In this document: positions 9,876 to 34,276 of the stretch, one piece after another
Layout: each line of letters begins with the position of its first letter
Position numbering within the stretch: position 1 is the stretch's first letter
Assembly (NCBI GenBank): GCA_022616275.1
Contig: JAKEFB010000170.1
Coordinates: 1 to 38,517 of the forward strand
Direction: 5' to 3'
DNA: 38,517 nt
Source of the DNA: Chloroflexota bacterium
GTDB lineage: Bacteria; Chloroflexota; Anaerolineae; Promineifilales; Promineifilaceae
Translations under genes and position numbers: made by a program
Notes under the pieces: model-generated
Told to the model about the DNA's origin: nothing
Databases searched by the model: none
Seen by the model: the letters and a program-made list of their open reading frames with translations, nothing else

Positions 9876-12179
9876 ATGGAAAATCGCGAGCAACTCCCAC
9901 TGGCCGGGTGGAGCAGCCTGGCGCTGTTTCTTTTCCTGGTGGCCTGCTATTTGCTCTTCTACACCGGCAGCTACTATTCGATTGACGAGATGGCTATGTT
10001 TAACATGGCCGAAACGCTGCTGAAGGAGGGGCAATTTAGCGTTGACCAGTTGAACTGGATTGAAATTTCGCCGGCCGCTTCGATTGGCAACTACGGGCCC
10101 GACGGCCGGCTTTACACTAAGGTGGCCCAAACCCAGGCCATCGTGGCTTTACCGTTGGTATGGCTGGCCCGCCACCGCGCGGCACTGGGGCAAATTCAAA
10201 CAGCCTTTCTGGCCAACGTTTTCCTCACAGCGCTCAACGGCGTGCTTATTTACCGGCTAGGCCGCCGCCTGGGATACCGTGACGCCCCCAGCCTGGCGGC
10301 CGCTTTGCTTTACGGCCTGGCGACCATCGCCCTGCCTTATACCCGAACCTTCCTATCCGAGCCATTATCGGGTCTGAGCCTGCTAGGTGCTCTCAGCGTA
10401 CTGGTCGCCTACCGGCAAGAGGGTGAGTTGTGGCGGCCGGCGCTGGCCGGGGTATGGCTGGGCGTGGCGGCGGCGACACGGCTGGTCAATCTGGTCCTGG
10501 TTCCGTTTTATGGACTGTATCTGCTCCTGACACAGCCGGGTTGGATAGCCGGGCTGATCGCCTGGTGGCGGGCCTGGCGCAAAGGGCGCTTTGAGGTGGC
10601 TCCGGCCCGCCAGCTCCTGCTCTGTGTGCCCTGGAGGCCATTGATAGCTCTGGCGGCGCCGGTGCTGCTGGCGGCCGGGCTCATTGCCTGGTATAACGCC
10701 AGCCGCTTTGCCGTGGCGACCGAGGCTGGTTATGCCCGATGGGATGCCTTCTCGGCCAGCCCGTTGACCGGCCTTTATGGCCTGCTGTTGAGCCCGGGGA
10801 AGAGCCTTTTTCTCTACACGCCGCTTTACCTGGCGACTCTCTTATTGCTACCTCGCTTTGCCCGCCAGCGCCGGGCCGAGGGGCTGTGGCTGGCCGGGGT
10901 GACGGTTGGCTATCTGCTGGCGCTGTCGCTCTGGTCTGGCTTTAGCGGCGGTTGGGCCTGGGGGCCACGGCTGCTCGTGCCATTAGCACCGCTGTGGGCG
11001 CTGCCGCTGCTGGAATTGCTGCCCACGGTGCGGGGATCGCGCCACTGGCAGATCGCGGCCGGGCTGCTGGTGACTCTGAGCCTGGCGGTGCAATTGCTGG
11101 GCTCGGTGGTAGACGCGGCTGAGTGGCTGCGAACCGTGCCTGAGGACGCGCCGGACCTGGCCACAGTTTTTGCCCCGCGTTTTTCGGCCCTATTGGGTCA
11201 TTGGGAAATGGCGCAGGCCGGCAAAGTGGACCTGGCCTGGCTGCGGCGTTCCGGGCTAGATCCGGTGAGCGGCCTGCAATGGCCGGCTCTAGCGCCCCTG
11301 TTGGCCTTCCTACTGATTACCGGGGCCGGGCTGCTGGTGCTGGGGTTGATCGGGTTGCCCTGGGTAGCCTCAGGGACGGTGTCCAGGGCTTCTTTCCGGT
11401 TATTGAATGAGAATGACGTGCGGGTAGTGGCACAAATTTTAGAGGCCAGCGGCCGGCCGGGAGACGGTATTGTTTCGGCCGCGGTCACCCATAGCCAGCC
11501 GTTCCAGAACCTGTACGACGGTACGCTGCCTATTTACGGCACGCGTAACAACCCGCCGGACAACTATCCACCGGAGGTGGAAGCGCGGCTGGCTCAATTT
11601 GTGAGCCGCTACGAACGGTTGTGGCTGTTGCTGGAATGGACGCCAACCGGCAGCCAGGAAAGTGGTTTGGAACAATGGCTGGCCGGCCGGGCCTTTCGGG
11701 CCACAGAGTGGGCGGCCGGTGGACTGCGACTGGTTTTATATGATCTCCGGCCAGGACCGGCAATTACGGAGGAGAGCTGGCGCTTTGGCGAAGCAATCGA
11801 ACTGCAAGGTTACGGGCTGGCCCCGGCCAGGCTGGAACCCGGCGAGATGGCCCGTCTGGCCCTGGTGTGGGTGGCCGTGGAACCACCAGACCAGGATTAC
11901 ACGGTCTTCATTCACGTGGAGAATGCGGCCGGGGAGTTGGTGGCCCAGGTTGATCGCCCACCGCTGGCTGGCCTGCGCCCAACTTCCGGTTGGGTGATAG
12001 GTGAACCGGTGAGTGACACCTATGGCCTTTTGCTGGACGAGACGCTGCCAGCCGGCCGCTACTCGGTGTGGGTGGGTCTGTATGCCTGGCCATCGCTGGA
12101 GCGGCTGCCAATATGGGATGCGGCCGGGCAGCCGGCTGGCGACCGGCTAAAGATTGTGGAGTTGGAGATTAGAGATTAA
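9876..12179 (+). CDS. GT-C membrane glycosyltransferase with C-terminal beta domain
   Basis: A polytopic membrane protein of about 767 residues related to the ArnT/PMT (GT39/GT83-like) glycosyltransferases, which use lipid-phosphate-linked sugars on the outer face of the membrane. YYSIDEMAMFNMAETLL after the first membrane segment carries the acidic D-E pair expected in the first outside loop. About ten hydrophobic segments follow up to residue 500. The last 150 residues are not membranous and contain a beta-sandwich-like module (IELQGYGLAP, YTVFIHVEN, GRYSVWVGLYAW) common at the end of such enzymes in Chloroflexota. The frame opens with TTG at 9843, but ATG 9876 precedes the first membrane helix directly. 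The gene converges on the GT2-DUF2723 gene; their stop codons overlap within one TTAA. Confidence 0.8.
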   Translation: MENREQLPLAGWSSLALFLFLVACYLLFYTGSYYSIDEMAMFNMAETLLKEGQFSVDQLNWIEISPAASIGNYGPDGRLYTKVAQTQAIVALPLVWLARHRAALGQIQTAFLANVFLTALNGVLIYRLGRRLGYRDAPSLAAALLYGLATIALPYTRTFLSEPLSGLSLLGALSVLVAYRQEGELWRPALAGVWLGVAAATRLVNLVLVPFYGLYLLLTQPGWIAGLIAWWRAWRKGRFEVAPARQLLLCVPWRPLIALAAPVLLAAGLIAWYNASRFAVATEAGYARWDAFSASPLTGLYGLLLSPGKSLFLYTPLYLATLLLLPRFARQRRAEGLWLAGVTVGYLLALSLWSGFSGGWAWGPRLLVPLAPLWALPLLELLPTVRGSRHWQIAAGLLVTLSLAVQLLGSVVDAAEWLRTVPEDAPDLATVFAPRFSALLGHWEMAQAGKVDLAWLRRSGLDPVSGLQWPALAPLLAFLLITGAGLLVLGLIGLPWVASGTVSRASFRLLNENDVRVVAQILEASGRPGDGIVSAAVTHSQPFQNLYDGTLPIYGTRNNPPDNYPPEVEARLAQFVSRYERLWLLLEWTPTGSQESGLEQWLAGRAFRATEWAAGGLRLVLYDLRPGPAITEESWRFGEAIELQGYGLAPARLEPGEMARLALVWVAVEPPDQDYTVFIHVENAAGELVAQVDRPPLAGLRPTSGWVIGEPVSDTYGLLLDETLPAGRYSVWVGLYAWPSLERLPIWDAAGQPAGDRLKIVELEIRD

Positions 12180-15037
12180 CGATCGTCTATTGGTAAATCA
12201 ATAGAGATGACCGTGAGGTTGTGAAAAACGCCTGGCTCAGATTGCCGGTAAAGATTGATCTCGGCCCTCGTGGGCTGGCCAGCCGGTTCCCATTCTAAGA
12301 GATAAATGTCTCGTACGATCTCACCGGGTAGCCAGCGGGATGTTGGATACCAGCCGAAAACCGGGTGGACCGTGTCCTGTTGGGCCACAATATCGTCGGG
12401 CGAATCAATAATCGGTTCGTCAGTTAGCTTCACCGTCACACTGTAATCGCTGGCCAGGTCGTAGGTAGCCTGGAAATAGAGGGTCAGGCGCAGCGCTGAC
12501 TCGCCGGCCGGTTCCAACCGGTAGCCTAGCAGGGAAATACCATCACCCAAAGAAATGGGAGATTGCGCTGGCGCTTCGTCCGGCCGGACAATTGGTTGGT
12601 TTGAAAGCTGGACGACGTGGGGTGCGGCCGCAGCCAGATAAAGTTCGTCCAACCGTCTTTCCCACCAGGAAAGGGGGAAGCGCCAAAAGGTTGAGTCAAG
12701 CGTATAAAGTTCCCGGCCGGAGGCCAGGTAGGCCTTGAAATTGGCATTGTGGTCTACTACAGTCAGGCCGCCAATCTCGTGGCTGATGTAGCGGGCGAAG
12801 TAAACGAGGAAATAATCATTGCCCCAGGGGACCATAAAGACAGGTTCTGGCTGATTTGCCGGCCGGGGCGTCTGGTTGGCGAGGAACAACACCTGTCGCC
12901 CGTCATTGGCCGGGTGGGTCAGGCTGTGAACGGCTTGCCAGTTGGGAATAGCCAGGGCGATGGCCAGGGCCAACAGGCCAGCGGCCGCGCCCCAACCAAA
13001 AAGCGGGTGTTTTTGCGCCAGCCAGCTTACCACCCAGGCGCTGCCTGCGACGAGGGCCATGACGGCCGGTATGAGGGCGTTGCTGGCTACTGCGGCAATC
13101 GGAAAGGTGATGCCGACACCATAGGCGATAGCGGCCGTCAGGAGCAAGGCTAACCCCGTTGGCCGTTCCGGCCGTCGCCAACTTAAGAGAGCCAGCCCGG
13201 CCAACCCAAGCAGCACGCCCATCAAAGAGACCTCGTCCAGCAATGCAGCCAGCAACTCAATGGAGCGACGGGAGCCATAGCCTTCCAGGTCAACGGAAGG
13301 TGGGCCGACTGAGATTACCTGCCTGGGGCCAATGAAAATGCGCCGGAAGCCTTCCCAGGTGTTGGGTTGCCCGAAGACAAAGTCGCTCCCCTGCCAGACG
13401 CGTAACGGCAGATACAAATAGACGGCGAAAGTAAGCAGCCCGGCCAGGCCGGCCGCGGGTATTAACCACCACAGGCGATGGCGTTGCTGCCAGAGCGCTG
13501 GAGCCAGGTAGACGGCTACGGCCGGCAGAATGAAAGCGGCCAGCCGGTGGTGGCCGCCGGCCAGACCCAGGATAATCCCCAAAACGACAAAGCCATTATC
13601 CGACCAATTTTTAGACAGGCGGCGGGCAACGACCAGCGTTGCCACAATGGAGGCCATGTACAGGCTGTAGACTTCGGGAATGGCGGCGTTGATCCAGAAT
13701 GTGAAAGTGACGGCCGCGAACAATGCCCCCACGGCGGCTGAGGGGATATGATGGGTGATGTCCACCAGGAAAAGATATAGTAGGCCCAGTGTGACCAGGG
13801 TCCAAAAAAGGGAGAAGAGTGAGGGCCCGGCGGCCGGCGGCAGGCCGAGCTGGTTGGTGGCGGCCACAAACGCCGATCCCAGGATCGTATATAAAGGATA
13901 GCCTGTGTGATGGAGCGTGCCCCATTTATTGAGAACAATCTGGATTTCGCCTACGTCAACCAGGTGCTTGTTAAAACTGGAAATGACGGTCCCCAGGTGG
14001 GTTGAAAAGTAGAGGACAAAGGCCACCAGGAGGACAGTACCCCCGACCAACCAGGCCAGGCGCTGTTGTAGCCAGACGCTGCCAAAAGCCAGGCCGCTAT
14101 AGATAAAGTAAAGCCAGTGCCAGGGCATGGCCCGCAAGGCGAACCAGGGACCTCGTTTCTGGCTGAGGAAGGTATAAAAAGGCCTGTTGAGGCCCACCAG
14201 CACGGCCGCTGCCAACAAGACCAGCAGCCAGGCCGGGGCCAGCCACAAGCCGGCCGGGAGAGCAGCCAGCCCTAGGAAAGCGGCTATGGTGCTGAGCCGC
14301 TGGCTGTTTTGCAGATTCAGATCGTTAAGCACACCTTTGCTGTGCAGGATCAGGCGGGTCCAGGGAATGGCCCGGTCGCGGATGTCGGTGATAAGCAGGC
14401 TGCGCACCGTCCAGCGCTTCAGGTGCTTGACCTGGAGCTGCTTGTCGAGGTAAATGTTGTAACCAGCGGCCCGCAGGCGGTAGCCCAGTTCAATATCCTC
14501 AATGCTGGGACGGCGGAAAGAGGTGTCGAAGCCGCCCAGAGCCAGGAAAACATCGCGGCGAATAGCGCCGCAACCGCTCCAAAACGTCGAAGCCTCGCTG
14601 CGAGCTGTCTGGTGGACGTAATGATGCTGCAGGTTTTTATATTGGGAGAGGAAGTTGGACGCGGCCGGCTCATCGTCGTAGGAGCCGAAGCAGGCCGCCG
14701 GCCCGGCGGCCTGGCCAAGGACGGCGGCCACACACCCAACGCTATCCGGCCTGACCAACACGTCGGCGTCTATGAAGTAGAGCAGCTCGCCCCGGGCCAG
14801 TTGAGCGCCAAAGTTACGGGCCGCCGCCGGCCCGCCGCGCGGCCGGGGTGCAGCGGCTAGCTGCGCGCCGTATTGTTGGGCGAGAGCCACCGAACCATCG
14901 GTGGAGCCATCGTCTACGACAATGCAGTCCCAGTGTGAGTAGCAGGTAGCCTGCAAGGCGCTCAGGCATTGCCGGAACGCCTCGCCGCCGTTGTAAACGG
15001 GGATAATGACGGTGACGTGTGGAAGTTGGTCTGGCAC
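12176..15037 (-). CDS. GT2-DUF2723 (GT-C) fusion glycosyltransferase
   Basis: A 953-residue two-enzyme protein. Residues 1 to about 230 are a GT2 domain: VTVIIPVYNG, VVDDGSTDGS for the nucleotide, FIDADVLV as the DxD metal site, and SIEDIELGYRLRAAG as the acidic acceptor motif. A few membrane segments follow. From about residue 335 a DUF2723/TMEM260-like GT-C domain begins, with FSTHLGTV, DVGEIQ and HHTGYPLYTILG, then about ten membrane helices. The last 120 residues form a beta module like that of the convergent gene (SLLGYRLEPAG, SDYSVTVKL). The domain order suggests both cytosolic and outer-face transfer steps on one protein. The start is GTG 15037, 28 bases after the small membrane gene. 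DUF2723 domains are usually separate proteins. Confidence 0.83.
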   Translation of the reverse strand: MPDQLPHVTVIIPVYNGGEAFRQCLSALQATCYSHWDCIVVDDGSTDGSVALAQQYGAQLAAAPRPRGGPAAARNFGAQLARGELLYFIDADVLVRPDSVGCVAAVLGQAAGPAACFGSYDDEPAASNFLSQYKNLQHHYVHQTARSEASTFWSGCGAIRRDVFLALGGFDTSFRRPSIEDIELGYRLRAAGYNIYLDKQLQVKHLKRWTVRSLLITDIRDRAIPWTRLILHSKGVLNDLNLQNSQRLSTIAAFLGLAALPAGLWLAPAWLLVLLAAAVLVGLNRPFYTFLSQKRGPWFALRAMPWHWLYFIYSGLAFGSVWLQQRLAWLVGGTVLLVAFVLYFSTHLGTVISSFNKHLVDVGEIQIVLNKWGTLHHTGYPLYTILGSAFVAATNQLGLPPAAGPSLFSLFWTLVTLGLLYLFLVDITHHIPSAAVGALFAAVTFTFWINAAIPEVYSLYMASIVATLVVARRLSKNWSDNGFVVLGIILGLAGGHHRLAAFILPAVAVYLAPALWQQRHRLWWLIPAAGLAGLLTFAVYLYLPLRVWQGSDFVFGQPNTWEGFRRIFIGPRQVISVGPPSVDLEGYGSRRSIELLAALLDEVSLMGVLLGLAGLALLSWRRPERPTGLALLLTAAIAYGVGITFPIAAVASNALIPAVMALVAGSAWVVSWLAQKHPLFGWGAAAGLLALAIALAIPNWQAVHSLTHPANDGRQVLFLANQTPRPANQPEPVFMVPWGNDYFLVYFARYISHEIGGLTVVDHNANFKAYLASGRELYTLDSTFWRFPLSWWERRLDELYLAAAAPHVVQLSNQPIVRPDEAPAQSPISLGDGISLLGYRLEPAGESALRLTLYFQATYDLASDYSVTVKLTDEPIIDSPDDIVAQQDTVHPVFGWYPTSRWLPGEIVRDIYLLEWEPAGQPTRAEINLYRQSEPGVFHNLTVISIDLPIDDR

Positions 15038-15065: not shown

Positions 15066-15419
15066 TCAGGCGTAGTCGTGGCTGTTTTTTTCCCGCAACT
15101 CTACCAGCCAGTTGTAGACCTTGGCGATGAAGAAGCCGATGGCGAAGCCGGTGATGAAGCCATAGGCAAATCCGATCAGGCTGCCAACGAAGCTAACCTG
15201 GTAGCCAATAAAATATTGGTTGAGCAGGGACAGGTGGGGACCAACCACGTCGCCGCCTTTTAAGACGAGCCAGTTGGTAGCCACAAAAATCCCCAGCCCC
15301 AGGAGCAGCCCGACGACAATGCCGTGCAGCGTGGCGTTGAGGCGAAGCAGACGGGTCAGGACCAGTTTTTCTAACGGTTTTTCGGCCGGTTTTTCCGCTT
15401 CTTCGCTCACCAGTGACAT
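15066..15419 (-). CDS. small membrane protein, KGGxVVGP/GYQV family
   Basis: 117 residues. A charged N-terminus (EEAEKPAEKPLEK) is followed by three hydrophobic stretches: GIVVGLLLGLGIFVATNW, a middle loop LVLKGGDVVGPHL, then YFIGYQV, GSLIGFAYGFITGFAIGF and a charged tail. The same pattern recurs as the C-terminal tail of the FAD oxidoreductase at 18043-18360. Similar small proteins are, as far as I recall, sometimes labelled bacteriophage holin in databases, but no phage gene is near. The ATG lies 2 bases after the aminomutase stop codon, so the two are translationally coupled. Its function is unknown; a membrane anchor or complex subunit is plausible. Confidence 0.75.
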   Translation of the reverse strand: MSLVSEEAEKPAEKPLEKLVLTRLLRLNATLHGIVVGLLLGLGIFVATNWLVLKGGDVVGPHLSLLNQYFIGYQVSFVGSLIGFAYGFITGFAIGFFIAKVYNWLVELREKNSHDYA

Positions 15420-15421
15420 CC

Positions 15422-16852
15422 TTATGACTTTTCTGGTTCGGGCATTTGTTCGACTTCCGGCCCGGCCGGCAGCTTTTCAACGGTGTTTGGGTCTGTCTCG
15501 ATGCTGCCGACGCCAAGCGGCCGCCACTTGTGGGACAGGTCACCACTGCGCAGCCGGTGTTCAGCGCCGCCACGAGCGTGAACCTGGCTGAATCCTTCCG
15601 GCTCTATGAACATACGCTCTCCTTCCAACAGCCCCAGAATACCTTCCTGGCCCGGTTCCGGCCGCTGCTCGATCAGGTTTTCCTGGGCCTTGATTTCGTA
15701 AGGGTCGTAGTCTAACGGTTCCTGGTAGGTGGTGATAAAGCCTTCGAAATTGCGTAAAACCACCTTGCCTGGCGCCTGGGAGAGAACGTAATTGGGCGTG
15801 ACCGGAATTTTGCCACCGCCACCAGGGGCATCCACGACGTAGGTGGGGATAGCGTAGCCAGAGGTGTGGCCGCGCAACCCTTCCATAATTTCGATCCCCT
15901 TGGCGACGGTGGTGCGGAGGTGGCCGGAACCTTCCACCAGGTCGCACTGGTAGAGGTAGTAGGGCCGGACGCGGATCTTGACCAGCTCGTGGCACAGCTT
16001 GCGTTGGATGTGGACGGAGTCGTTCACGCCGGCCAGGAGCACGCTCTGGTTGCCCAGGGGGACGCCGGCGCGGCTCAGCCGGTCGCAGGCAGCCGCCAGC
16101 TCCGGCGTAATTTCCTTGGAGTGGTTGACGTGGATGTTCATCCAGAAGGGATGATATTTGCTGATCATCTCGCAGAATTCGTCGGTGATGCGCATGGGCA
16201 GGAAGACAGGAACTCGTGAGCCGATACGGATAATCTCGACGTGGGGGATGGCTCGCAGACGGGAGAGGATCATGTCCACCAGCTTGGGGGCCAATACCAG
16301 AGGATCGCCACCCGAAAGCAGAACGTCGCGGATTTGCGGCGTCTTCTCAATGTACTCGATTTGGGCGTCAAACTCAGCCCGGCTAAAAGTTTGCGTGGGA
16401 TCGCCGACGATGCGGCTGCGGGTGCAGTAACGGCAGTAGCTGGCGCATTGAGTGGTGATGAGCATCAACACCCGGTCGGGATAACGGTGGACCAGGCCAG
16501 GGACCGGCGAATGTTTGTCTTCAGCCAGGGAATCTTCCATCATAGCCTGGAAGGGGACCATCTCTTTGTCAGTGGGGATAACTTGTTTGCGAACAGGGCA
16601 GCCAGGATCGTCAGGATCAATGAGGCTGGCAAAGTAGGGGGTAATGTCTACCCTGAACAGCCCCTTGGCGCTGAGGGCTTTCTTTTCCGACCCGGTCAGG
16701 TTGACGACCTTGCCCAGTTCGCCCACGGTGTTGAGACGGTTGCTCATCTGCCAGCGCCAGTCCATCCACTTTTCGTCGGGAACATCTTGCCAGTAAGGGG
16801 CGCGTGTATAAACAGGTCCGAAGGGCTGCTCGATAGTTTGCGGTTTGTTCAT
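15422..16852 (-). CDS. kamA: L-lysine 2,3-aminomutase
   Basis: Radical SAM, PLP-dependent enzyme that shifts the alpha-amino group of L-lysine to give L-beta-lysine. The 476 residues contain the cluster motif CASYCRYC (CxxxCxxC), LLSGGDPL, the QCDL aspartate that pairs with the substrate amine, and VVDAPGGGGKIP, which holds the second substrate aspartate and the PLP lysine. These substrate-binding residues favour lysine over glutamate or EF-P type substrates. About 60 residues extend beyond the catalytic core. ACGGAGAAATTT precedes the ATG and a good promoter lies upstream. It is first in an operon with a small membrane protein and the GT2-DUF2723 enzyme. The beta-lysine acetyltransferase AblB is not in the window, so the fate of beta-lysine is open. 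Confidence 0.92.
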   Translation of the reverse strand: MNKPQTIEQPFGPVYTRAPYWQDVPDEKWMDWRWQMSNRLNTVGELGKVVNLTGSEKKALSAKGLFRVDITPYFASLIDPDDPGCPVRKQVIPTDKEMVPFQAMMEDSLAEDKHSPVPGLVHRYPDRVLMLITTQCASYCRYCTRSRIVGDPTQTFSRAEFDAQIEYIEKTPQIRDVLLSGGDPLVLAPKLVDMILSRLRAIPHVEIIRIGSRVPVFLPMRITDEFCEMISKYHPFWMNIHVNHSKEITPELAAACDRLSRAGVPLGNQSVLLAGVNDSVHIQRKLCHELVKIRVRPYYLYQCDLVEGSGHLRTTVAKGIEIMEGLRGHTSGYAIPTYVVDAPGGGGKIPVTPNYVLSQAPGKVVLRNFEGFITTYQEPLDYDPYEIKAQENLIEQRPEPGQEGILGLLEGERMFIEPEGFSQVHARGGAEHRLRSGDLSHKWRPLGVGSIETDPNTVEKLPAGPEVEQMPEPEKS

Positions 16853-17356: not shown

Positions 17357-18037
17357 TTATTCAAGGGAAAAGCGATAACCCAAACCGGGCACGTTTTGCA
17401 CAAAACGAGGGTGGTCAGGATCTAGCTCAATCTTCCGGCGAAGCCGGCGGACGAGGCCGCGGACCAGATCGCGATTATCCTCGCCGGTGTAACCCCAGAC
17501 GTGCTCGACAATCACTTCCGTAGGGATGATCTGGCCGCGGTTGGTCATGAGGACGTAGAGCAGGCGAAACTCTAATTGGGTCAGTGGCTGTGGTTCGCAG
17601 TGGGGCATGGTGACAATGCGCGTGGCCGGGTCCAGGACAATTTCATCCAGCTCCAGGGCCGGCAGGGCGAAGGCTGGCAGCTCGGCCGCCCGGCGCAAGA
17701 AGACCCAGGCATAACGAGAAAGCACGCGCGACGAGACCGGGCGCTCCAGCACCAGGTCTGCTCCGGCCTCCAGGAGGGTTACGTGTTGTTCCTCGGTCAG
17801 GTGATCGACCAGGACCAGCAGAGCAGCCTGACTAGTGGAGCGGGTTGCCTCGATGTTTTTAACGAGGGCTGGATTATTGACGGCCGAAACGACGATCAAG
17901 TCTACCGGCCGTTCCACCAACGTGGCGCTAATGCGCTGCAAATCGGCGCTGGTAGCCACAGCCAGACCCGCATAACGGAGGACAAAGCTGAGAAAGTCCC
18001 GGTCTTCCTGGTTACCGGCAACGACAACAGCCTGCAT
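17357..18037 (-). CDS. OmpR-type winged-helix protein with degenerate receiver
   Basis: 226 residues. Residues 1-115 fold like a receiver, but the key sites are gone. The N-terminal acidic pair is replaced (VVVAGNQED), the strand-3 aspartate is a serine (DLIVVSAVNN), and the usual KP dipeptide is RP (LERPVS). Residues 130-226 are an intact winged-helix DNA-binding domain: LTQLEFRLLYVLMTNRGQII, VEHVWGY, VRGLVRRLRRKIE and VPGLGYRF. It is therefore probably a phosphorylation-independent regulator that responds to a ligand, partner or redox state. It is the last gene of the eight-gene operon; the ATG lies 2 bases after the FAD oxidoreductase stop codon. A weak hairpin, CCCTT-N4-AAGGG, overlaps its stop codon. 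Confidence 0.85.
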   Translation of the reverse strand: MQAVVVAGNQEDRDFLSFVLRYAGLAVATSADLQRISATLVERPVDLIVVSAVNNPALVKNIEATRSTSQAALLVLVDHLTEEQHVTLLEAGADLVLERPVSSRVLSRYAWVFLRRAAELPAFALPALELDEIVLDPATRIVTMPHCEPQPLTQLEFRLLYVLMTNRGQIIPTEVIVEHVWGYTGEDNRDLVRGLVRRLRRKIELDPDHPRFVQNVPGLGYRFSLE

Positions 18038-18039
18038 GG

Positions 18040-19836
18040 TTACATATAATCCAGGAATTTACGCAAAATGCCCAATTCTGCCTTGCGTTGGATAACAGCC
18101 AGGTAAAAGAGCATGGTCATATTGCGTAAAAAGGCGTAACTCCAGCCAGAAGTAAAGCCGATCACGAGGCCATACAGAAAACCGAGAAGGCTGCCTGGGG
18201 CTGTCACCTGGTAGCCGGGAAAGTAGTGGCGAAGGAGTTGTAAATTTGGCCCAACCACCGGGCCACCTTTCATCACCAGGAAGAGCGTGGCCAGGAAGAG
18301 AACCAGGCCAACGGCCAGCCCCACGGCCGAGCCAAATGCCAGGGGGTCCAGCTTGGTGAAGACGTGGGAGAGCGCTTCCTGCATGACCTCCACCGCATCT
18401 TCGGCCTCTACCTGGCCATAAATCTCTTCGTGGTACTCTTCCTCGGCGTTGACAACCCACAAATTGTTTTCTTCCCCAAACAGGGCGTTGCGCACGGCCA
18501 GCAGCCCGGTGAGCATGGCGTGGTCCTGGTTGTTATAGCGGTGCAGGCCGTTGCGGCCGACGGTCTGGAAGTTTTCCAGGGAGGCCAGGTAACTCTTGAT
18601 CGTTTCCAGGTAGTGGCGGTAGTCGCCGTCGTAGACGGGATAGGACTTAGGCACACGGAAGACACAACCATCTTCCACGTCGGCCGCCCGGGCCAGGCCG
18701 ATTTTTTCGATTTCTCGCTTACCCAGTTCAACCAGCGCTTCGTCCGGCATCGTCCACAGGTCGTCCCCTTCGTTACAGAAATATTCCAGGCCGAGGCTGG
18801 TCTTGTCCAGGGTGGGGACCATGTGGGGGCTCCAGTTTTTGAAGTTTTGGATGCGGCCGACCTTGACGCCTGGTTCATGGACATAAATCCAGTTGTCGGG
18901 GAAGAGCGTGGGCTGGTTGATAATCAGGCAAACGGTCAAAAAGTCCCGGTAACGCAGCTTTGCGGCCGCAGCCTGCACTTCCGGTGGCGGTGGTGGCTCC
19001 AGCCGCTTGATAAACTCTGTGACCGGCATACTGGAAATGAAGTCGGTGCCGCCAACGGTTTCCACGTGGCCGTTGCTGGCGACCATAATGCCGGTGAGGC
19101 GGTTGCCGTCGCGACAAATGCCGACGACGTCGGTGTTGAGCTGGATCCGGCCGCCGGCTTGCTCCACCCTTTCCCGGACGGTCTGCCACATCATGCCCGG
19201 TCCCTGGCGGGGATAATCGAATTCTTCGATGAGGCTCGTAATTTTCTGCCCCGGCCGGATAAACATGCTCACCAGGGCCGACTTTAACGACAGGTTTTTG
19301 ATGCGTTGGGCGGCCCACTCAGCCTTTAGCTCGGAGCAGGGAATTCCCCAGACTTTTTCGGTGTACGTTTCAAAGAAGGTCTGGAAGAGCCGCTGGCCGA
19401 AACGGTTGGTCACCCACTGCTCAAACGTTTCTTCCTGCCGGTAAGGAAAGAGCTGCCAGCGGAGATAGCTCAGGATAATCAGCACGCTTTCGACTAAGCC
19501 AAGGTTCAGCAGGGCATTGAGTGGCCGGAGGGGATAGTAGAAGAATTTCTGGTCGTAGTAAATGCGAGACAGGCGCGGCCGGCGCAGGAATTCCTCCCCC
19601 AGGACTTCCTGCCAGATGCGTTTGACCTCGGCCGACTTGGTGAAGAAGCGATGGCCGCCCATGTCGAAATAAAAGCCTTTGTACTTTTCGGTGCGGGCAA
19701 TGCCGCCGACTTTGTCCATTTTCTCAAAGACGAGCGGCTGATGGCCGTGCCTGGTTAGCTCGTAAGCGGCAGTCAACCCGGCCGGGCCGCCGCCAATGAC
19801 GATAAACTTTCTATCTACTCCTTGGGGCTGCTGCAT
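18040..19836 (-). CDS. FAD oxidoreductase (HemY/Glf-like) with membrane tail
   Basis: 598 residues. VIGGGPAGLTAAYEL is the FAD-binding motif, followed by KMDKVGGIARTE and the FDMGGHRFF block seen in the amine-oxidase-fold family that includes protoporphyrinogen oxidase-like and UDP-galactopyranose-mutase-like proteins of glycan clusters. Residues 1 to about 490 match that enzyme. The last 106 residues add a membrane domain with VMKGGPVVGPNL, YFPGYQV and GSLLGFLYG, homologous to the separate protein at 15066-15419. The enzyme should thus be membrane-tethered. It lies 3 bases after the ferric-reductase-like gene and 2 before the pseudo-receiver gene. A sugar-ring mutase or a desaturase role are both possible; the reaction is unknown. 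Confidence 0.8.
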   Translation of the reverse strand: MQQPQGVDRKFIVIGGGPAGLTAAYELTRHGHQPLVFEKMDKVGGIARTEKYKGFYFDMGGHRFFTKSAEVKRIWQEVLGEEFLRRPRLSRIYYDQKFFYYPLRPLNALLNLGLVESVLIILSYLRWQLFPYRQEETFEQWVTNRFGQRLFQTFFETYTEKVWGIPCSELKAEWAAQRIKNLSLKSALVSMFIRPGQKITSLIEEFDYPRQGPGMMWQTVRERVEQAGGRIQLNTDVVGICRDGNRLTGIMVASNGHVETVGGTDFISSMPVTEFIKRLEPPPPPEVQAAAAKLRYRDFLTVCLIINQPTLFPDNWIYVHEPGVKVGRIQNFKNWSPHMVPTLDKTSLGLEYFCNEGDDLWTMPDEALVELGKREIEKIGLARAADVEDGCVFRVPKSYPVYDGDYRHYLETIKSYLASLENFQTVGRNGLHRYNNQDHAMLTGLLAVRNALFGEENNLWVVNAEEEYHEEIYGQVEAEDAVEVMQEALSHVFTKLDPLAFGSAVGLAVGLVLFLATLFLVMKGGPVVGPNLQLLRHYFPGYQVTAPGSLLGFLYGLVIGFTSGWSYAFLRNMTMLFYLAVIQRKAELGILRKFLDYM

Positions 19837-19839
19837 GGC

Positions 19840-20517
19840 TTAGACCGGTTTTATCGAGGTATAAGAGCGGATAAAGAAGAAGCCGGCCAGTTGGAGAACG
19901 ATGGCCACCATGGTTAGCGCCAGGGTGAAGAAGCGCATGGCCGGGTTGCGCTGGATGAGGGCCTGGTAAAGGATGGTGTGGACGAGGGTCAGAACAAACA
20001 AACCATAGTTGAAACGCTGTAAATTTTTCCACAACTTTCCTTTTAGCCAGCGGAGGGTGAGGTCATTGGAGAGGAACAGGAGCATCAGCAGGATCAGGGT
20101 GGCCAACAGGCCGGCGTAATTGCTTATCCCGAACGAGTTAAGCAGCGGCCGGAAGCCGTGCGGCGTTTCCTCGACAAAGAAAAGCCAGAACCGCCCCTGC
20201 AAGTGGGCCATGAAGCCGAAGACGACGTGGGCCGCGCCAACCAGGCCTGTCCAGATGCCAATGTCGCGCCGGAGGTTAATGTTGACCGGGTTGCGTTTGC
20301 GCCTGGCGCGCAGCAATTGCCAGGGGCCAATCAGAAGGGTCAGGGCCAGTAAAAGGAGGGCCAGGTAACCGGTGCCGCCGGCCAGGATGCGGGCTCGTTC
20401 AACGCCGGGCATCAGTTGGAAGGTGACAACCATCCAGACCAGCGTGGCCAGGGCCAGGGCAACATGGGTCAACCACCGCTCTTTTTCGCGGGGTAAAAAG
20501 TTCCAGAGGACGTTCAT
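19840..20517 (-). CDS. ferric-reductase-like transmembrane protein
   Basis: 225 residues with about six hydrophobic helices. Candidate haem-ligand histidines are in GAAHVVFGFMAH and in LTLVHTILYQ, which fits the ferric-reductase-like domain (YedZ/MsrQ/NOX type) that passes electrons across the membrane through b-type haem. No NAD(P)H or flavin domain is attached, so an external partner is needed. The co-translated FAD oxidoreductase just downstream (3-base gap) is an obvious candidate, but that is inference. It lies 3 bases after the methyltransferase stop codon. MsrQ function is less likely because MsrP is absent from the window. Confidence 0.75.
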   Translation of the reverse strand: MNVLWNFLPREKERWLTHVALALATLVWMVVTFQLMPGVERARILAGGTGYLALLLLALTLLIGPWQLLRARRKRNPVNINLRRDIGIWTGLVGAAHVVFGFMAHLQGRFWLFFVEETPHGFRPLLNSFGISNYAGLLATLILLMLLFLSNDLTLRWLKGKLWKNLQRFNYGLFVLTLVHTILYQALIQRNPAMRFFTLALTMVAIVLQLAGFFFIRSYTSIKPV

Positions 20518-20520
20518 GAA

Positions 20521-21333
20521 TTATCCTGCCTGGCGCTTATGAGCCAGGAGTACTATCGAATGACCAAATGGCAATTCTAATCCCAAGCGGCCGATCAGCC
20601 AAGCCTCAGCCTGGAGCAGACCGCGCAGCAAGCGGTTGAGCTGGGCCAAACGGGGTGGCCGGATGGCCAGGCCCGGCCCAATTGCCCGGGCCTGGACCGG
20701 GGGCCGCCAGGGCCAGTATTCGCCCAACATGGCCCACAGGCTGGGCAACACGTTGACGTAGGAGGCGCACCCAACATCCAACCCGGCCTGGATTACCATA
20801 CCTTTTAGCTGGAAGCGGGAGTAACGCCGGTACTGGTCGGGATCCGCGCCGCGCAGCCGGGCGTGGCCCAGGGCCGAGTTGGTGCGGATGTACAGGAGGC
20901 CGCCCGGCCGCAGCAAACGGGCAAAGGCCTCGAGGGTCACCTGGTCAGCCCCGGCCGGGGAGAGGTGCTGGAGCGTGTCCAGGCAAATGATCAGGTCAAA
21001 AGTGCCGGCAATAAACGGCGGGTGAATGGCGCTGGCCAGGGCAAGAGCTGTAGCCCCTCGCTGGCGGCAAAAGCTAAGGGCATGAGTGGAAATGTCTATG
21101 CCTGTCACGGGTTTTACCAACTGGTAACGTTCCAGATAATTGAGAAGCAGGCCGGTGCCGCAGCCGGCGTCCAGGACACGCAGTGGTTGGCGGCTGGCCA
21201 ACGGCCGGCGCAGCAGCCCGGCCATAATGTCGCGCATGCCCATCGCCCACCAGTGCCTCTCTTCAATGTCGTAGAGCCGCCGGTAATAATCATATTCAAA
21301 AATCTGGGGTGGGGCGTCGTGGCTGGTGGTCAT
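20521..21333 (-). CDS. class I SAM-dependent methyltransferase
   Basis: About 270 residues from ATG 21333, which overlaps the glycosyltransferase stop codon as ATGA. The longer frame to 21465 only re-reads the upstream gene. VLDAGCGTGLLLNYL is the SAM-binding motif I, TGIDIS is the acidic strand 2, and DLIICLDTLQHL is motif II/III. The N-terminal YYRRLYDIEERHWWAMGMRD resembles methyltransferases of glycan and lipid clusters. The target is probably a sugar hydroxyl or lipid intermediate, inferred from the flippase, GT4 and SGNH neighbours. Confidence 0.85.
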   Translation of the reverse strand: MTTSHDAPPQIFEYDYYRRLYDIEERHWWAMGMRDIMAGLLRRPLASRQPLRVLDAGCGTGLLLNYLERYQLVKPVTGIDISTHALSFCRQRGATALALASAIHPPFIAGTFDLIICLDTLQHLSPAGADQVTLEAFARLLRPGGLLYIRTNSALGHARLRGADPDQYRRYSRFQLKGMVIQAGLDVGCASYVNVLPSLWAMLGEYWPWRPPVQARAIGPGLAIRPPRLAQLNRLLRGLLQAEAWLIGRLGLELPFGHSIVLLAHKRQAG

Positions 21334-22454
21334 GCGGAACGGCCCACCTCGCGAAGAATATCCAGGGTCTGCCTGGCGCACTCGTCCCAGCGAAAGGCAC
21401 GGGCCCGCTCGACGGCTCGCGCGCGCAACTCCTGGGCCAGGATGGGGTCGCCGAGGGCCTGCCACATGGCCTGGGCCAGAGACTCGACGGTTGGCTCATC
21501 TATCAGCAGCGCTCCGTTTTGGGCAATTTCGCCCAGGGCGGCTTTATTGACGGTGACCACGGGGACGCCACAGGCCAGGGCTTCTACCAGTGGCAGGCAA
21601 AAGCCCTCATAGGAGGATGGGTGAACGAAGAGGTCGGCTGCGTTGTAGAGGGCGACCAGCTCGTGGTGGTGGGAGACCTGGCCGTCGGTCTGGACCAGGC
21701 TATCGGCGATGTCCAGTTCGGCTGCCAGCCGGGCCAGGGGCAGGTGGAGGTGGTTAGGACCGAAGAGGAGCAGCCGGTGGGGAAGGTGGTGGTCTTTTCT
21801 AAGCTGGCTAAAGGCAGCCAGGAGCAAGGGAATGTTGCGGCGCTGGGAGAGCTTACCAACAAATAAAATATACGGCCGGTCGTCGCCCAGGAGTTTACGC
21901 CGTGTTTCGGCCAGCACCGTTTCGTCGCGTAGTGGCCGGAAGGCATCGTCCGCGCCCAGATGGATAGCGACTACCTTTTTCTCCGGCAGGCCGTATAGTT
22001 TTTGCAGGTCTTCTTTGGTGGAAAGGGATGGCGCCACCACGATGTCAGCCTTGAGAGCGCTCAACCGGTAGCGTTGGGCGTAAGTCAGGCGGTGCCACCA
22101 GGGATGGGTGCCACTCTCGGCTTCGTTGGCGCTGTGAATGGCCAGGACGCAGCGGCCAGTGTAGTTGAGGGGCATCGTATAGCTGGGGCAAAAGAGAACG
22201 TCGCTTTCCTGCCTGGCGCGGCCGGCCAGCAACAGGTGTTCCCATAGCATCCCCGTCAGCGCCGGCTGTAGTCGCTGGACCTGAAATGCATCGGAAAGGC
22301 CCAAGTCGCCATTAGCCAGCGGCTCACGGATGTACAGGGTGGCCTTGTCGTCCGGCCGGAACTGGGTATCCCAGTTTTTGACGATATATTCAATGTAACG
22401 GGCCACACCCAGGCGCTGTCCGGCGAGACGTTGGGCGTTGATAGCAATGCGCAT
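21330..22454 (-). CDS. GT4-family glycosyltransferase
   Basis: 374 residues, GT-B fold, retaining transferase using an NDP-sugar at the inner face of the membrane. It starts MRIAINAQRLAGQRLGVARY, the usual N-terminal strand and glycine loop. The C-terminal half holds ILFVGKLSQRRN and the EGFCLPLVEALACGVPVV motif, with the two conserved glutamates that bind the donor. AGGAGA before ATG 22454 fixes the start; the upstream extension overlaps the flippase gene. It lies 10 bases after the flippase stop codon and overlaps the methyltransferase start by 4 bases. The sugar and acceptor are unknown. Confidence 0.9.
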   Translation of the reverse strand: MRIAINAQRLAGQRLGVARYIEYIVKNWDTQFRPDDKATLYIREPLANGDLGLSDAFQVQRLQPALTGMLWEHLLLAGRARQESDVLFCPSYTMPLNYTGRCVLAIHSANEAESGTHPWWHRLTYAQRYRLSALKADIVVAPSLSTKEDLQKLYGLPEKKVVAIHLGADDAFRPLRDETVLAETRRKLLGDDRPYILFVGKLSQRRNIPLLLAAFSQLRKDHHLPHRLLLFGPNHLHLPLARLAAELDIADSLVQTDGQVSHHHELVALYNAADLFVHPSSYEGFCLPLVEALACGVPVVTVNKAALGEIAQNGALLIDEPTVESLAQAMWQALGDPILAQELRARAVERARAFRWDECARQTLDILREVGRSA

Positions 22455-22464
22455 ATTATTTCTC

Positions 22465-23967
22465 CTATTCTGGTTTATCCTCCCGGAGGTTGGCGATTGC
22501 GCCGGGCGGCCTGGCGACCATCGCTTGAACCTCCGGGGGGGTTTTGCCAGGTCGGAATATTTGGTAGGCAAGCTGGATTTCGGCCGGGGTGATAGCCTGG
22601 ACGACCAGCAGGGCAGCCACATAGACGCCTGCGCCAATTACAGCCCGGAACAAGACGTGAAGTTGGCTGGTGAGGAGTAGGACGAGCCCCATAACGGCCG
22701 CCGCCAGCGCCGGGCGGGGCAGGTGGCGAAACAAGGGCACAGGGCCAATGCGCTGCCGGGTATAGAGGTAACCAAAGCCCAGGATGAACAATTCCGAGGC
22801 CACCGTGGCCACGGCCGCGCCGGCCAGTCCCCAACGGGGAATAAAGGCCAGGTTCAGGATCACGTTTGTCACCGCCGCCCCGGTAATGACCTTTAATTCT
22901 ACCTGCTGCTGGTCAAAGGAGACCAGCAGAACGCGGTAATTACGATTCAAAAAGAGCAGGACGATGGACCAGATAAGAAGTTGGAAAGGCAAGACGGCCG
23001 GGCGAAAGTCCGGTCCATAAATGAGATCGAAGCCGGGTCTGGCCAGCAGCACACCGGCTACCCCCAGACCCAGGCCAACTATTGCCGTGAGGCGAATGGA
23101 ACGGCTCAAGAGGTCGGAAACGGTGGCCAGGCCGTGGGCGTAGGCCCGGTCAAGGGAAGGAAAGAGGGCCACGAAGTAGGCCACGGCGGCTACAGAGGGA
23201 ACCCAAACGATGCGGTAAGCTGCGCCGTAGAGGCCGACTGCTTCGGCGCCCCGCATTAAGCCAAGCATTAACGTATCAAAATTGAAGGTGACAGCTCCCA
23301 TGGCTGTGGAGACAGCCAAAGGGAGCGTGGCCCGGACCAGCGGTCGCCAGACAACCCTGTCCAGCCCTAAGCGAAAACGGCCGAAGCGGCGCACGTAGAC
23401 CACGGCCAGGATGGCCATGTTGCACCCAGTGGCAATCAGGTAAATGAGCGGCACACGCAAGGCATCGGCCGGGTCGTGTACCAGCAGCAAAACGGCCGCC
23501 AACATGAGCGCCTGGGAGACAATCTCGGCCGCGGCAATGACCCCCATCATCTCCAGAGCCATGAAGACCCAACCCAGGTCAAAAGCCAGGAAGAAGAGGA
23601 CCAGGCCGTAGGTCAGGACAACCTGCTTTTCCAGGGAAGAGCCGGACCATAGCCAGACGAAAACGGCCAGCAGGGCCAGGGCAGCCACGGCCAACCCCAG
23701 GCGTAGAGTGAGGATAGCCTGCGCCAGGCTGGCCAGCCGGGATTCATCTCGGGCAATTTCTCGAGGCCCGAGACGGTGCAGGCCGGCCTGGACCACCAGC
23801 TCGGCGTAAGAGAGAACGGTCAGGGCAAAGACAATGACGCCAAAGTTCTCCACGCCCAGGGATCGGGCCAGGTGGATGGTGGTGAGGAAGGCGAAGCTCC
23901 GGCTGAAAAGCTGGGCAGCGCTCATAGCCGCCAGGTTGCGGCCGATGCGCCGGGCTCGGATGCTCAT
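22465..23967 (-). CDS. Wzx-like polysaccharide flippase
   Basis: 500 residues with 12-14 hydrophobic helices, matching oligosaccharide flippases of the MOP superfamily that move undecaprenyl-linked glycan units across the membrane. The N-terminus has NLAAMSAAQLFSRSFAFL and GVENFGVIVFALT, and an internal RIVWVPSVAAVAYFVALFPSL stretch typical of this group (written here in overlapping pieces) is present near the middle. The ATG overlaps the SGNH hydrolase stop codon by 4 bases. Its presence marks the operon as a Wzx/Wzy-type surface glycan cluster, but no polymerase (Wzy) was recognised. Confidence 0.88.
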   Translation of the reverse strand: MSIRARRIGRNLAAMSAAQLFSRSFAFLTTIHLARSLGVENFGVIVFALTVLSYAELVVQAGLHRLGPREIARDESRLASLAQAILTLRLGLAVAALALLAVFVWLWSGSSLEKQVVLTYGLVLFFLAFDLGWVFMALEMMGVIAAAEIVSQALMLAAVLLLVHDPADALRVPLIYLIATGCNMAILAVVYVRRFGRFRLGLDRVVWRPLVRATLPLAVSTAMGAVTFNFDTLMLGLMRGAEAVGLYGAAYRIVWVPSVAAVAYFVALFPSLDRAYAHGLATVSDLLSRSIRLTAIVGLGLGVAGVLLARPGFDLIYGPDFRPAVLPFQLLIWSIVLLFLNRNYRVLLVSFDQQQVELKVITGAAVTNVILNLAFIPRWGLAGAAVATVASELFILGFGYLYTRQRIGPVPLFRHLPRPALAAAVMGLVLLLTSQLHVLFRAVIGAGVYVAALLVVQAITPAEIQLAYQIFRPGKTPPEVQAMVARPPGAIANLREDKPE

Positions 23968-30099: not shown

Positions 30100-31123
30100 C
30101 GTCCAGGTAAGGGCCAAAGAGGGTGAGCAGCGGCCATAACAGCGGCTGCCAGGGTGGCCCCAGGCCGACCAGCCGGCCGTACCAGACCAGGAGCCGCTGC
30201 TGCCCGGGAGGCAAGTAGGCCAGCTCGGCCGGGCTGAGCAGCGGAGGCCGGAGCGCCAGGTCAGGCTGGCCGAGGGCGCGGAGCAGCCGGCCGAGACTCA
30301 AGGCCGATTGCAGGTGAATGTGTTCGTAGGGGATGCCCTTCAGGCGGCGAACGGCCGGATCCATCCAGCGCCGGGGCAAGAAGCCTAACCCCCAAACACC
30401 CACGTGCGGCTCTGGGCCTGGAGCAAAGCGGTTGACGGTCCGGGCCAGTAGACCCCCGCCTGGGGCGCATACCCGGCCGGCTTCGGCCAGCACAGCCGCG
30501 ACCGAGGGAACGTGCTCCAGGAGATTTTCGGCCACAACCAGGCTAAAGCGACCGTCAGGAAAGGGCAGGTGATCGGCGCAGGCACAGACCAGGGGAAGCG
30601 CTTCGTAGCCCAGGCCGGCCAGCCGGCGGCGGCCGATCACCAGCCAGCGAAAGGCGATGTCTACCCCGACCACCTCGTGTCCTGCTGCTGCGGCGGCGGC
30701 GACAAAGCCGGCTGTGCCGCAGCCCAGGTCCAAGACCGGCCCGTTGGCTGCCAGGCCGTAGGCTGCCAGGCGAGCCAGGATGCTGTTTCCCCGCTGCACC
30801 CCGGCCAGGTGGTGGGCAGTGAAGCGCCGGGCCTGCTGGGGCAGAACCTCCGGCGTGATGGCGTAGTAGCGGGCAACCAGCGCCGGAAAGTCAAGCCGGC
30901 CGGCTTCGGCGGCCAAGCGTAACCCCTTTTCCCGGTCTGCTTCCAGGCTGATGTACGGATCGGAGTAGAGGCGGAAATCAGGGATCCCGGCGATGATGGG
31001 ATAGACGGCCGGGCAGGCGCGGCATTCATAGCGGCCGGTAAATGATTCCAGGGAGCCTTTGCAGCGGGGACAGCAGAAGGTCAGGGCGGCCATTGGCCGG
31101 CCCGTCATTGGCCGGGCGATCAT
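30065..31123 (-). CDS. SAM methyltransferase with N-terminal zinc ribbon
   Basis: 352 residues from ATG 31123, which overlaps the deacetylase stop codon (ATGA). Residues about 16-50 form a Trm112-like zinc ribbon, CCPRC and CRAC with [11 protein letters not shown], as in a class of glycan or antibiotic methyltransferases. The catalytic domain has [16 protein letters not shown] (motif I), [11 protein letters not shown] (acidic strand 2), [13 protein letters not shown] and ENLLEHVPS. Three in-frame ATGs at 31123, 31108 and 31093 lie in a 15-bp triplication; the ATGA overlap favours the first. The 3' end overlaps the Thr-Pro protein gene on the other strand by 35 bases. The target is probably a sugar or lipid intermediate. 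Confidence 0.82.
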
Positions 31124-31135
31124 TGGCTGGCGTGT
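31091..31135. repeat. three 15-bp tandem repeats spanning a start-codon overlap
   Basis: Units at 31091-31105, 31106-31120 and 31121-31135 each begin CATTGGCYGG. On the minus strand each unit provides an ATG in the same frame, encoding [10 protein letters not shown] and MAALT-type starts of the methyltransferase, while the deacetylase C-terminus ends inside the third unit. Confidence 0.85.
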
Positions 31136-31914
31136 GGGGAAAGCCGGGAGTCCCAGTCCGGCCGCCAGCGGCGGCGAGCGGCCCGCAACCCCTGGCGCAG
31201 GCGCAAATAGTGGTGGAAGAGCGGCCGGTCCAGGTGGGGGGTCAGGCCGGGCCGGAAGTAGTAGGCGTCCAGGCGAGAGAGGGCGTAGGGTTCGCTGCCG
31301 GCCGAGACCAGCCCCAGGCGGACGCTGGCTGCGCCGTCGAAGTAGCGGCGCACCAGGCCGGCCACGGCCGGGTTGGTAGCCCCGTAGGGGTAAGCAAAGA
31401 CGCGAGCCGGGTGGCCGGTGTGGACCTGGATGGCCTGCTGCGAAGCCGCAATTTCCTCCTCGGCCTGGTCTAGGCCCAGGGCGGGCAGCGGAGCGTGGCT
31501 GCGGGTATGGGCGCCCAGCTCCCAGCCGGCGGCGGCCAGCCGGCCGGCCTGTTCCCAGGTGAGCAGCGGCCTGACCGGCATGCCGGCCGGTTGTCCTGGC
31601 CAGCGGTTGTCCCGGCCGCAGTAGCCAGTGACCAGGAAAACGGTAGCACTGAAGCCATGAGCCTGCAAGCGGGGCCAGGCGGTGGTGTAAACGCTGGCGT
31701 AGCCATCGTCAAAGGTGAAGGCAACCGGCCGGGCCGGGAGAAGATGGGCCGGCTCCTTGAGCCAGGCCAGCAAGGTGGCCAAGGACACGGCCTGGTAGCC
31801 GGCAGTGGCCAGGCTGGCCAGGTGGCTCTCGAAGACGGACGGCGGCGTAAAAAGGGGCGAGGCCACTTCCTCGACGGCATGGTAGGTGAGGATGGGAATG
31901 CGCTTCAAGGGCAT
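31120..31914 (-). CDS. polysaccharide deacetylase (NodB/CE4 fold)
   Basis: 264 residues with a CE4 fold. IPILTYHAVEE opens the fold, VAFTFDDGY holds the catalytic base and metal aspartate, HTRSH is the HxxxH metal pair, and FAYPYGATN is motif 3. Family members remove N-acetyl or O-acetyl groups from GlcNAc-type polysaccharides, often during export. No signal peptide is visible, so it may act in the cytosol or on lipid-linked sugars. The start codon abuts the Gfo/Idh stop codon with no gap, and the methyltransferase overlaps its end. Confidence 0.88.
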   Translation of the reverse strand: MPLKRIPILTYHAVEEVASPLFTPPSVFESHLASLATAGYQAVSLATLLAWLKEPAHLLPARPVAFTFDDGYASVYTTAWPRLQAHGFSATVFLVTGYCGRDNRWPGQPAGMPVRPLLTWEQAGRLAAAGWELGAHTRSHAPLPALGLDQAEEEIAASQQAIQVHTGHPARVFAYPYGATNPAVAGLVRRYFDGAASVRLGLVSAGSEPYALSRLDAYYFRPGLTPHLDRPLFHHYLRLRQGLRAARRRWRPDWDSRLSPHASQ

Positions 31915-34232: not shown

Positions 34233-34276
34233 TTCGTGTAGTGACAAAGCTGATGAAAGAGTTGGCTAATTGGAGA

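Follow-up and report, generated by a model that had tools for sequence, protein, structure and literature searches.

Small membrane proteins that serve sugar-handling enzymes have been described in eukaryotes and in bacteria. The eukaryotic DPM synthase (DPM1/DPM2/DPM3) combines a sugar enzyme with two small membrane proteins; in the sections of PMC7728079 on these subunits, DPM2 is a two-transmembrane (TM) protein that binds DPM3, and the DPM3 anchor forms a subunit of its own in humans, but in yeast the enzyme carries it as a C-terminal TM domain. In the corresponding part of PMC10821137, a small membrane protein (GacJ or WpsB) activates a glycan enzyme (GacI or WpsA), with natural fusions in some species. 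For the UDP-galactopyranose mutases (UGMs), Table 3 of PMC3624792 assigns roles to individual residues, and part of the same source describes stabilisation of the reduced flavin state.

The locus presented here resembles these systems, as the above sections describe them, and departs from each. It encodes two small membrane domains, termed A and B, together with a UGM-like flavoenzyme. As with the DPM3 anchor, A is found free or fused to the enzyme; however, the catalytic partner is a UGM-like flavoenzyme, and A and B are paralogous to one another. The GacI/GacJ and WpsA/WpsB systems likewise provide a bacterial glycan enzyme served by a small membrane protein, sometimes fused, but there a single small protein partners a glycosyltransferase and no flavoenzyme is involved, whereas here the small proteins form a pair. 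The copies in our window (the whole 38,517-nucleotide stretch of Chloroflexota DNA analysed) matched neither the DPM2/DPM3 Pfam families at E ≤ 0.1 nor the GacJ/WpsB family, which we take to be DUF2304, and none of these was among the best 25 of 42 families for 48 A/B sequences. The best reading by analogy is that A/B may work like DPM3/DPM2 or like GacJ while, by the tests made, belonging to neither; the fused-or-free anchor logic of the eukaryotic DPM synthase would then be repeated by proteins with no detected relation to it. A search of titles and abstract openings, with subscription papers mostly outside its coverage, returned no description of the A/B pair.

In the window, subunit B is a free ORF of 117 residues (15066–15419) with two hydrophobic segments (residues 34–52 and 81–99 in a hydropathy test) and the residues YN where its second helix, TM2, ends. 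Domain A comprises residues 487–598 (18043–18378) of a 598-residue flavoenzyme (18040–19836), carries the signature RN and closes with a charged C-terminal tail. The stop of B lies 28 bases before the start of a single 953-residue protein (12176–15037) that combines a GT2 glycosyltransferase (PF00535; 444 bits with a GT2 profile) with a TMEM260-like O-mannosyltransferase part (PF11028). The free and the fused copy, originally described as within 3 kb of each other, are ~2.6 kb apart. The two genes between them, an arrangement unusual among the loci, encode a response-regulator-like protein with a weak receiver domain (17357–18037, 2 bases past the flavoenzyme) and a KamA-type lysine 2,3-aminomutase (15422–16852; TIGR03820 535.4 bits, cut-off 525.4); all of these genes are on the minus strand. 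When ORFs of other loci were searched, neither intervening gene had a clear counterpart. We rejected KamA, the response regulator, an MsrQ-like protein and a methyltransferase as fixed partners, since this search recovered only the genes of the window itself and weak matches to unrelated proteins.

In a BLASTP comparison of window B with the flavoenzyme's C-terminal domain, 40/78 aligned residues (51%) were identical, with no gaps and an E-value of 2e-22. The alignment bore out the original prediction that both copies share the blocks KGGxVVGPxL, YFxGYQV and GSLxGFxYG at equal spacing, as well as a similar first helix. The fused copy occupies about the last 106–112 residues of the flavoenzyme. 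The local A–B score of 195 compares with a maximum of 66 in 5000 full shuffles and of 76 in 5000 shuffles that preserved the pattern of hydrophobic and other residues (0/5000 reached 195), so the likeness exceeds that of any two hydrophobic proteins. An HMM comparison, suggested at the outset as a way to tell kinship from mere hydrophobicity, gave, for 32 B against 34 A sequences, a probability of 99.9 and E 3e-37 over 92 columns. Chance likeness of hydrophobic proteins was thereby ruled out by BLASTP, shuffles and profile–profile comparison alike. Free B matched no Pfam family at E ≤ 0.1. Sequence searches for a solved structure of A or B gave nothing meaningful (best E 2; an undecaprenyl-diphosphatase at E 4.6), and profile searches gave none up to E 10.

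A five-sequence profile and one contig scan on one conserved peptide pattern yielded 33 loci, 34 with the window, from ~10 phyla as judged by record names and mostly from metagenome-assembled genomes (MAGs). An A-type domain was present in 34/34 and a B-type domain in 33/34; in the sole locus without B (L045) the contig ends ~120 bases past the flavoenzyme. The flavoenzyme itself was found in 33/34 loci and, for L030, on another contig of the same genome. In a tree of 67 domains, one branch divided the 34 A from the 33 B domains (support 100/100, present in 100% of 200 bootstrap trees). Judged from this tree, A and B make up a paralogous pair that goes back to one old duplication, and the 117-residue protein is the second member of that pair rather than, as first proposed, a stand-alone copy of the fused domain. 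The two groups also differ at the end of TM2, which reads RN in 34/34 A domains and YN in 31/32 B domains, with YG in the remaining one. By a crude test, in which some genomes had profile rows (for example G305 and G307), 23/27 two-copy genomes held one RN and one YN copy; G541, G895, G851 and G931 were not clean. Single-copy relatives, mostly YN-type, occur in several phyla. Since lone relatives elsewhere were nearly all YN-type (14/14 in one set; one HN, L062, in another), A looks like the derived copy.

Some relatives fall outside the pair. Single-copy relatives of 81–107 residues were found in Acidobacteriota (L058–L066; L063 lies in a longer frame), where a second copy was not found. At L006 a single-copy relative lies on the opposite strand (L049), and a match at L007, which reads like a transporter permease, was left out. 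The Acidobacteriota genome G327 carries a very divergent A-like gene (L108, 9096–9581; 35 bits) with the RN mark, convergent with a flavoenzyme; no B was found beside it.

We then turned to 996 genomes sampled independently of the peptide pattern: 301 Chloroflexota and, as the phyla of L022, L027 and L035, respectively, 199 Acidobacteriota, 247 Thermodesulfobacteriota and 249 Gemmatimonadota (phyla of these three assigned by record name). Some sampled genomes are loci of the peptide-pattern scan. A best match of at least 100 bits occurred in 3, 4, 6 and 20 genomes of these phyla, in the order Chloroflexota, Acidobacteriota, Thermodesulfobacteriota and Gemmatimonadota (33 in total), counts that may include misses because in many genomes only part of the first-look candidates was scored. 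Both copies were present in 32 of the 33, the exception (G185, the genome of L045) being at a contig edge. One further genome, G920 (89 bits), also carries the pair. Three single-copy Acidobacteriota genomes reach 90–94 bits, so the pair and single-copy families overlap in score.

The flavoenzyme accompanied the pair in 34/34 pair-type genomes of the four phyla: 3/3 in Chloroflexota, and above the cut-off in 31/31 of the other three phyla (G920 included). In 28 of these 31 it lay no more than 13 kb from the pair on one contig; separate contigs carry the two in G498 and G917, and in G931 the flavoenzyme–A gene runs into the contig end. For Gemmatimonadota the pair/flavoenzyme table reads 21/0/7/221 (Fisher p 7e-25). 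The flavoenzyme also occurs without the pair, in 40/43 flavoenzyme genomes of the Chloroflexota sample and 7/28 of the Gemmatimonadota sample. In a tree of 57 flavoenzymes from a short search, the A/B-linked ones gather with two changes of state, in a clade (SH-aLRT 97) that includes L087 and L088, which lack A/B, and the odd L108. The original observation is right and larger in extent than claimed. A pairing kept together with this enzyme across several phyla suggests an undescribed membrane complex that makes surface sugars.

Distances co-vary across the loci (A–B r 0.62, A–flavoenzyme 0.70, B–flavoenzyme 0.59; 0/2000 permutations each). Distances of a neighbouring GT4 glycosyltransferase group, GT4a, correlate as well or better (0.73–0.84), and those of GT2 less (0.39–0.62). 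Because B–GT2 (0.39) falls below B–GT4a (0.73), co-divergence does not single out the proposed partners; the correlation with GT4a indicates that the whole operon travels together, and it is no proof of contact.

Both domains share a small-residue zipper in the second helix. TM2 contains six small residues at i+4 spacing, with a G/A/S fraction in that register of 0.99 in A and 0.98 in B, and permutation reproduced this zipper in 9/20000 (A) and 28/20000 (B) cases; TM1 adds three further small residues. A crude hydropathy test called exactly two segments in 25/32 B and 19/34 A sequences, and in our view the fewer two-segment calls in A are due to its glycine-rich TM2. Lysine and arginine, summed over both flanks, outnumber those of the loop in 34/34 A and 31/32 B sequences, the flanks being longer than the loop, and in B the mean net charge of the loop (+1.0) exceeds that of the N-terminal flank (+0.5). 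These counts, weak as topology evidence, favour both ends inside, clearly for A and weakly for B. Each domain likely consists of two helices with cytoplasmic termini. Conservation is high in the predicted outer loop.

In 19/34 loci the flavoenzyme ends in a fused A domain, in 14/34 A is free, and in one, a Verrucomicrobiota MAG (L030, 3129–4421), A is instead fused to the end of a GT2 and B comes next. Among the free cases, five Acidobacteriota loci have the order A–flavoenzyme–B, and the remainder place the flavoenzyme at other positions within the locus. Across the 18 fused loci besides the window, the flavoenzyme–A stop and the B start lie a median of 24 bases apart (7–168; start codons hand-chosen). 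An apparent GT2–flavoenzyme–A triple fusion in L042 was discarded, the GT2 being a separate ORF in a different frame.

The neighbours of A/B comprise GT2, GT4, polysaccharide deacetylase, GFO/IDH/MocA dehydrogenase, epimerase, sulfotransferase and PMT-type genes. A same-strand GT2 no further than 8 kb away occurred in 26/34 A/B loci and in 1/20 flavoenzyme loci without A/B (p 4e-7), a contrast that is partly biased, as the GT2 profile was trained on A/B loci and Chloroflexota supplied all 20 loci used for comparison. The eight loci without such a GT2 (L020, L021, L025, L028, L036, L037, L043 and L045) include some cut by contig ends, and in L025 the GT2 is on the opposite strand. From the coordinates, GT2 is the next gene (gap < 180 bases) or is fused in 21/34 loci. 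In G802 flavoenzyme and GT2 are adjacent with no A/B.

Pairing, fusion and co-occurrence form a solid pattern, from which we infer a physical complex and its chemistry. Our main reading, to which we assign a probability of roughly 0.68, is that A and B are membrane subunits of a surface-glycan enzyme complex that hold the flavoenzyme and usually the GT2. Each would contribute two glycine-zipper helices and have both its termini on the cytoplasmic side, and the six small residues at i+4 in TM2 suggest that A and B probably pack against each other as a tight 2+2-helix heteromer. A would tether the UGM-like flavoenzyme, by a peptide bond where fused and probably by its charged tail where free, with B as the partner of A. 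Adjacency and the one A–GT2 fusion point to docking of GT2 on the A/B module. At the membrane, the flavoenzyme would rearrange a diphospho-sugar, or otherwise make it ready, and pass it to GT2 and to the other glycosyltransferases of the locus. Two proteins labelled 'hypothetical' or mislabelled 'holin' and an unnamed flavoenzyme would thereby become a defined unit (flavoenzyme, A, B and usually GT2) of mostly uncultured bacteria from ~10 phyla.

A simpler arrangement, in which A only ties the flavoenzyme to the membrane and the related B does a separate job and shares the operon by chance, would suit a flavoenzyme part that has no predicted TM segment in 27/33 rows (the window's own has one borderline segment). 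It would also suit the window, where B comes after KamA and before GT2, not next to the flavoenzyme. However, plain anchoring leaves unexplained why, among the 33 strong genomes, only the one cut off by its contig edge lacks B and why A and B co-diverge, and where A is a separate gene no covalent anchoring takes place. We consider it quite unlikely.

As regards its catalytic partner, the original prediction of an anchor or complex subunit associated with a glycan or redox enzyme is well backed by comparison, with amendments: the same flavoenzyme is always in the genome and glycosyltransferases are mostly near, but this flavoenzyme resembles sugar enzymes of the UGM type, with putative mutase activity, more than an ordinary oxidoreductase. 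The window protein scores 679.3 bits against NF005548 (PRK07208.1-4; cut-off 389) and 43.6 bits against the UGM family model TIGR00031, below its cut-off of 303.75; we found no paper containing the term PRK07208. The nearest solved structures by sequence are UGMs (profile against 3uka, E 1.3e-34); 3uka and 4dsg are the enzymes of A. fumigatus and T. cruzi. We mapped the UGM residues by hand on the alignment of the flavoenzyme profile with 3uka, taking the roles from the table named above. The diphosphate residues R182, Y317, R327, Y419 and Y453 are kept in 33/33 A/B-linked and 20/20 other flavoenzymes, as are N457 and R447, and the His63 loop has H in 31/31 rows with a letter there. In contrast to UGM, Q107 (the uracil contact in that table) is K or R in 27/31 A/B-linked enzymes and 18/20 others (two retain Q), N207 is replaced by I or V in 33/33 A/B-linked enzymes, and a membrane module is added. 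The retained residues make a diphospho-sugar, nucleotide-linked or otherwise, the likely substrate.

In a more specific version of the complex, a UGM-type enzyme embedded in the membrane would use a polyprenyl-diphosphate-linked sugar in place of a free nucleotide sugar, and A/B would present this lipid-linked substrate first to the flavin and afterwards to the neighbouring GT2. It is prompted by the kept diphosphate clamp, the one changed uracil contact and the dedicated two-paralogue module. As most flavoenzymes without A/B show the same residue changes, it is the module, not the residues, that carries the lipid-linked idea, and we hold this version only tentatively, as a rather unlikely one. 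If true, it would provide a lipid-linked counterpart of UGM, and the A/B–flavoenzyme unit offers a direct test case for UGM-type enzymes working at the membrane on lipid-linked sugars.

UGM-type enzymes need reduced flavin to work, which raises the idea that A/B is a quinone- or heme-linked electron carrier keeping the flavin reduced. The window adds a 225-residue protein (19840–20517) with weak similarity to the heme-binding MsrQ (33.8 bits, cut-off 130), whose gene lies directly upstream of the flavoenzyme and ends 3 bases before its start. Yet no relative of this gene was found in the other loci searched, and conserved Cys and His residues are absent from the A/B helices, B having its one conserved His in the loop; a redox role is very improbable.

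Transport presents another alternative. GtrA (PF04138), which has four helices, is likewise a small membrane partner beside glycan enzymes, and two 2-TM subunits would give the same number. If A/B were a flippase or channel-like unit for polyprenyl-linked sugar that replaces GtrA, rather than a scaffold, the high conservation of the predicted outer loop would fit. A model from 15 GtrA sequences also found no GtrA among the ORFs of any of the 34 A/B loci, whereas GtrA sits beside a same-family flavoenzyme in 2/40 Chloroflexota flavoenzyme genomes without A/B (G290 and G253; L105 4804–5292 and L186 6519–7061). These two genomes leave room for a transport-like role. Two cases are too few, however, and the window already has a Wzx-like polysaccharide flippase (22465–23967, minus strand; NF041871 52.5 bits, cut-off 800). 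A free transporter would not be expected to occur fused, as A does, to a soluble flavoenzyme or a GT2. Homology to GtrA or to the DPMS TM domain was rejected, as hhalign gave a probability below 1% for A, B and A+B against the 15 GtrA sequences, and we regard a transport unit as unlikely.

The original prediction knew of no named function for the family. A database label does exist, since NF037947 ('bacteriophage holin') matches 48/48 A/B domains scanned at E ≤ 0.01, but it is unsupported. The window copies score 37.5 and 37.0 bits and six further A or B proteins 34.8–46.0 bits, all below the curated cut-off of 70, and the fused A proteins of L030 and L042 went unmatched at E ≤ 1e-5. In the 8.5-Mb genome, window A and B were the only two matches found (E ≤ 1). 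A derivation from a phage holin or pore would predict phage relatives, and homologues confined to phage holin cassettes had been named at the outset as a refuting outcome, yet searches of phage records, of plasmids, of viral contigs and of PHROGs turned up no A/B relative. Neither B nor a single-copy relative had a match in 50,697 phage records, and one viral-contig match was low-complexity EKPAEKP and no relative. PHROGs gave none for A/B at E ≤ 0.01 and none for free B at E ≤ 1; one weak match of the fused domain (E 0.053 over 18 residues) was not counted. A protein labelled 'bacteriophage holin' on a Haloarcula plasmid (L127, 3980–4246) lies among transporters and a rod-determining gene, with no phage genes annotated within 4 kb, so the name of NF037947 itself looks unreliable; no paper containing the term was found. 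Together with the sub-cut-off scores and the glycan genes around A/B, this rules out phage holin identity for practical purposes, and a phage-derived pore is barely credible. It also suggests that the label deserves review for this small-protein family. DUF5676, a two-TM family of unknown function, gave weak matches in 16/48 sequences at E ≤ 1 (best E 0.0013), the window copies being unmatched at E ≤ 0.1. NF037947 and DUF5676 may belong to the same two-helix family at long range; A differs in its RN signature, its C-terminal tail and its pairing with B, with no phage context.

In Gemmatimonadota, 4/5 loci (L033, L035, L040 and L041; L038 differs) read flavoenzyme–GT4b–GT4a–(epimerase)–deacetylase–GT2–A–B, and G895 has the same order with no epimerase. 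The window carries most of this gene set in two stretches. Besides the genes described above, it encodes, all on the minus strand, a GT4b glycosyltransferase (21330–22637), a polysaccharide deacetylase of the group seen near A/B in other loci (31120–31914; 336 bits), a GFO/IDH/MocA-type sugar dehydrogenase (31915–32991; 558 bits), a GT4a glycosyltransferase (32988–34247; 657 bits) and a second GT4b glycosyltransferase (34277–35476; 577 bits).
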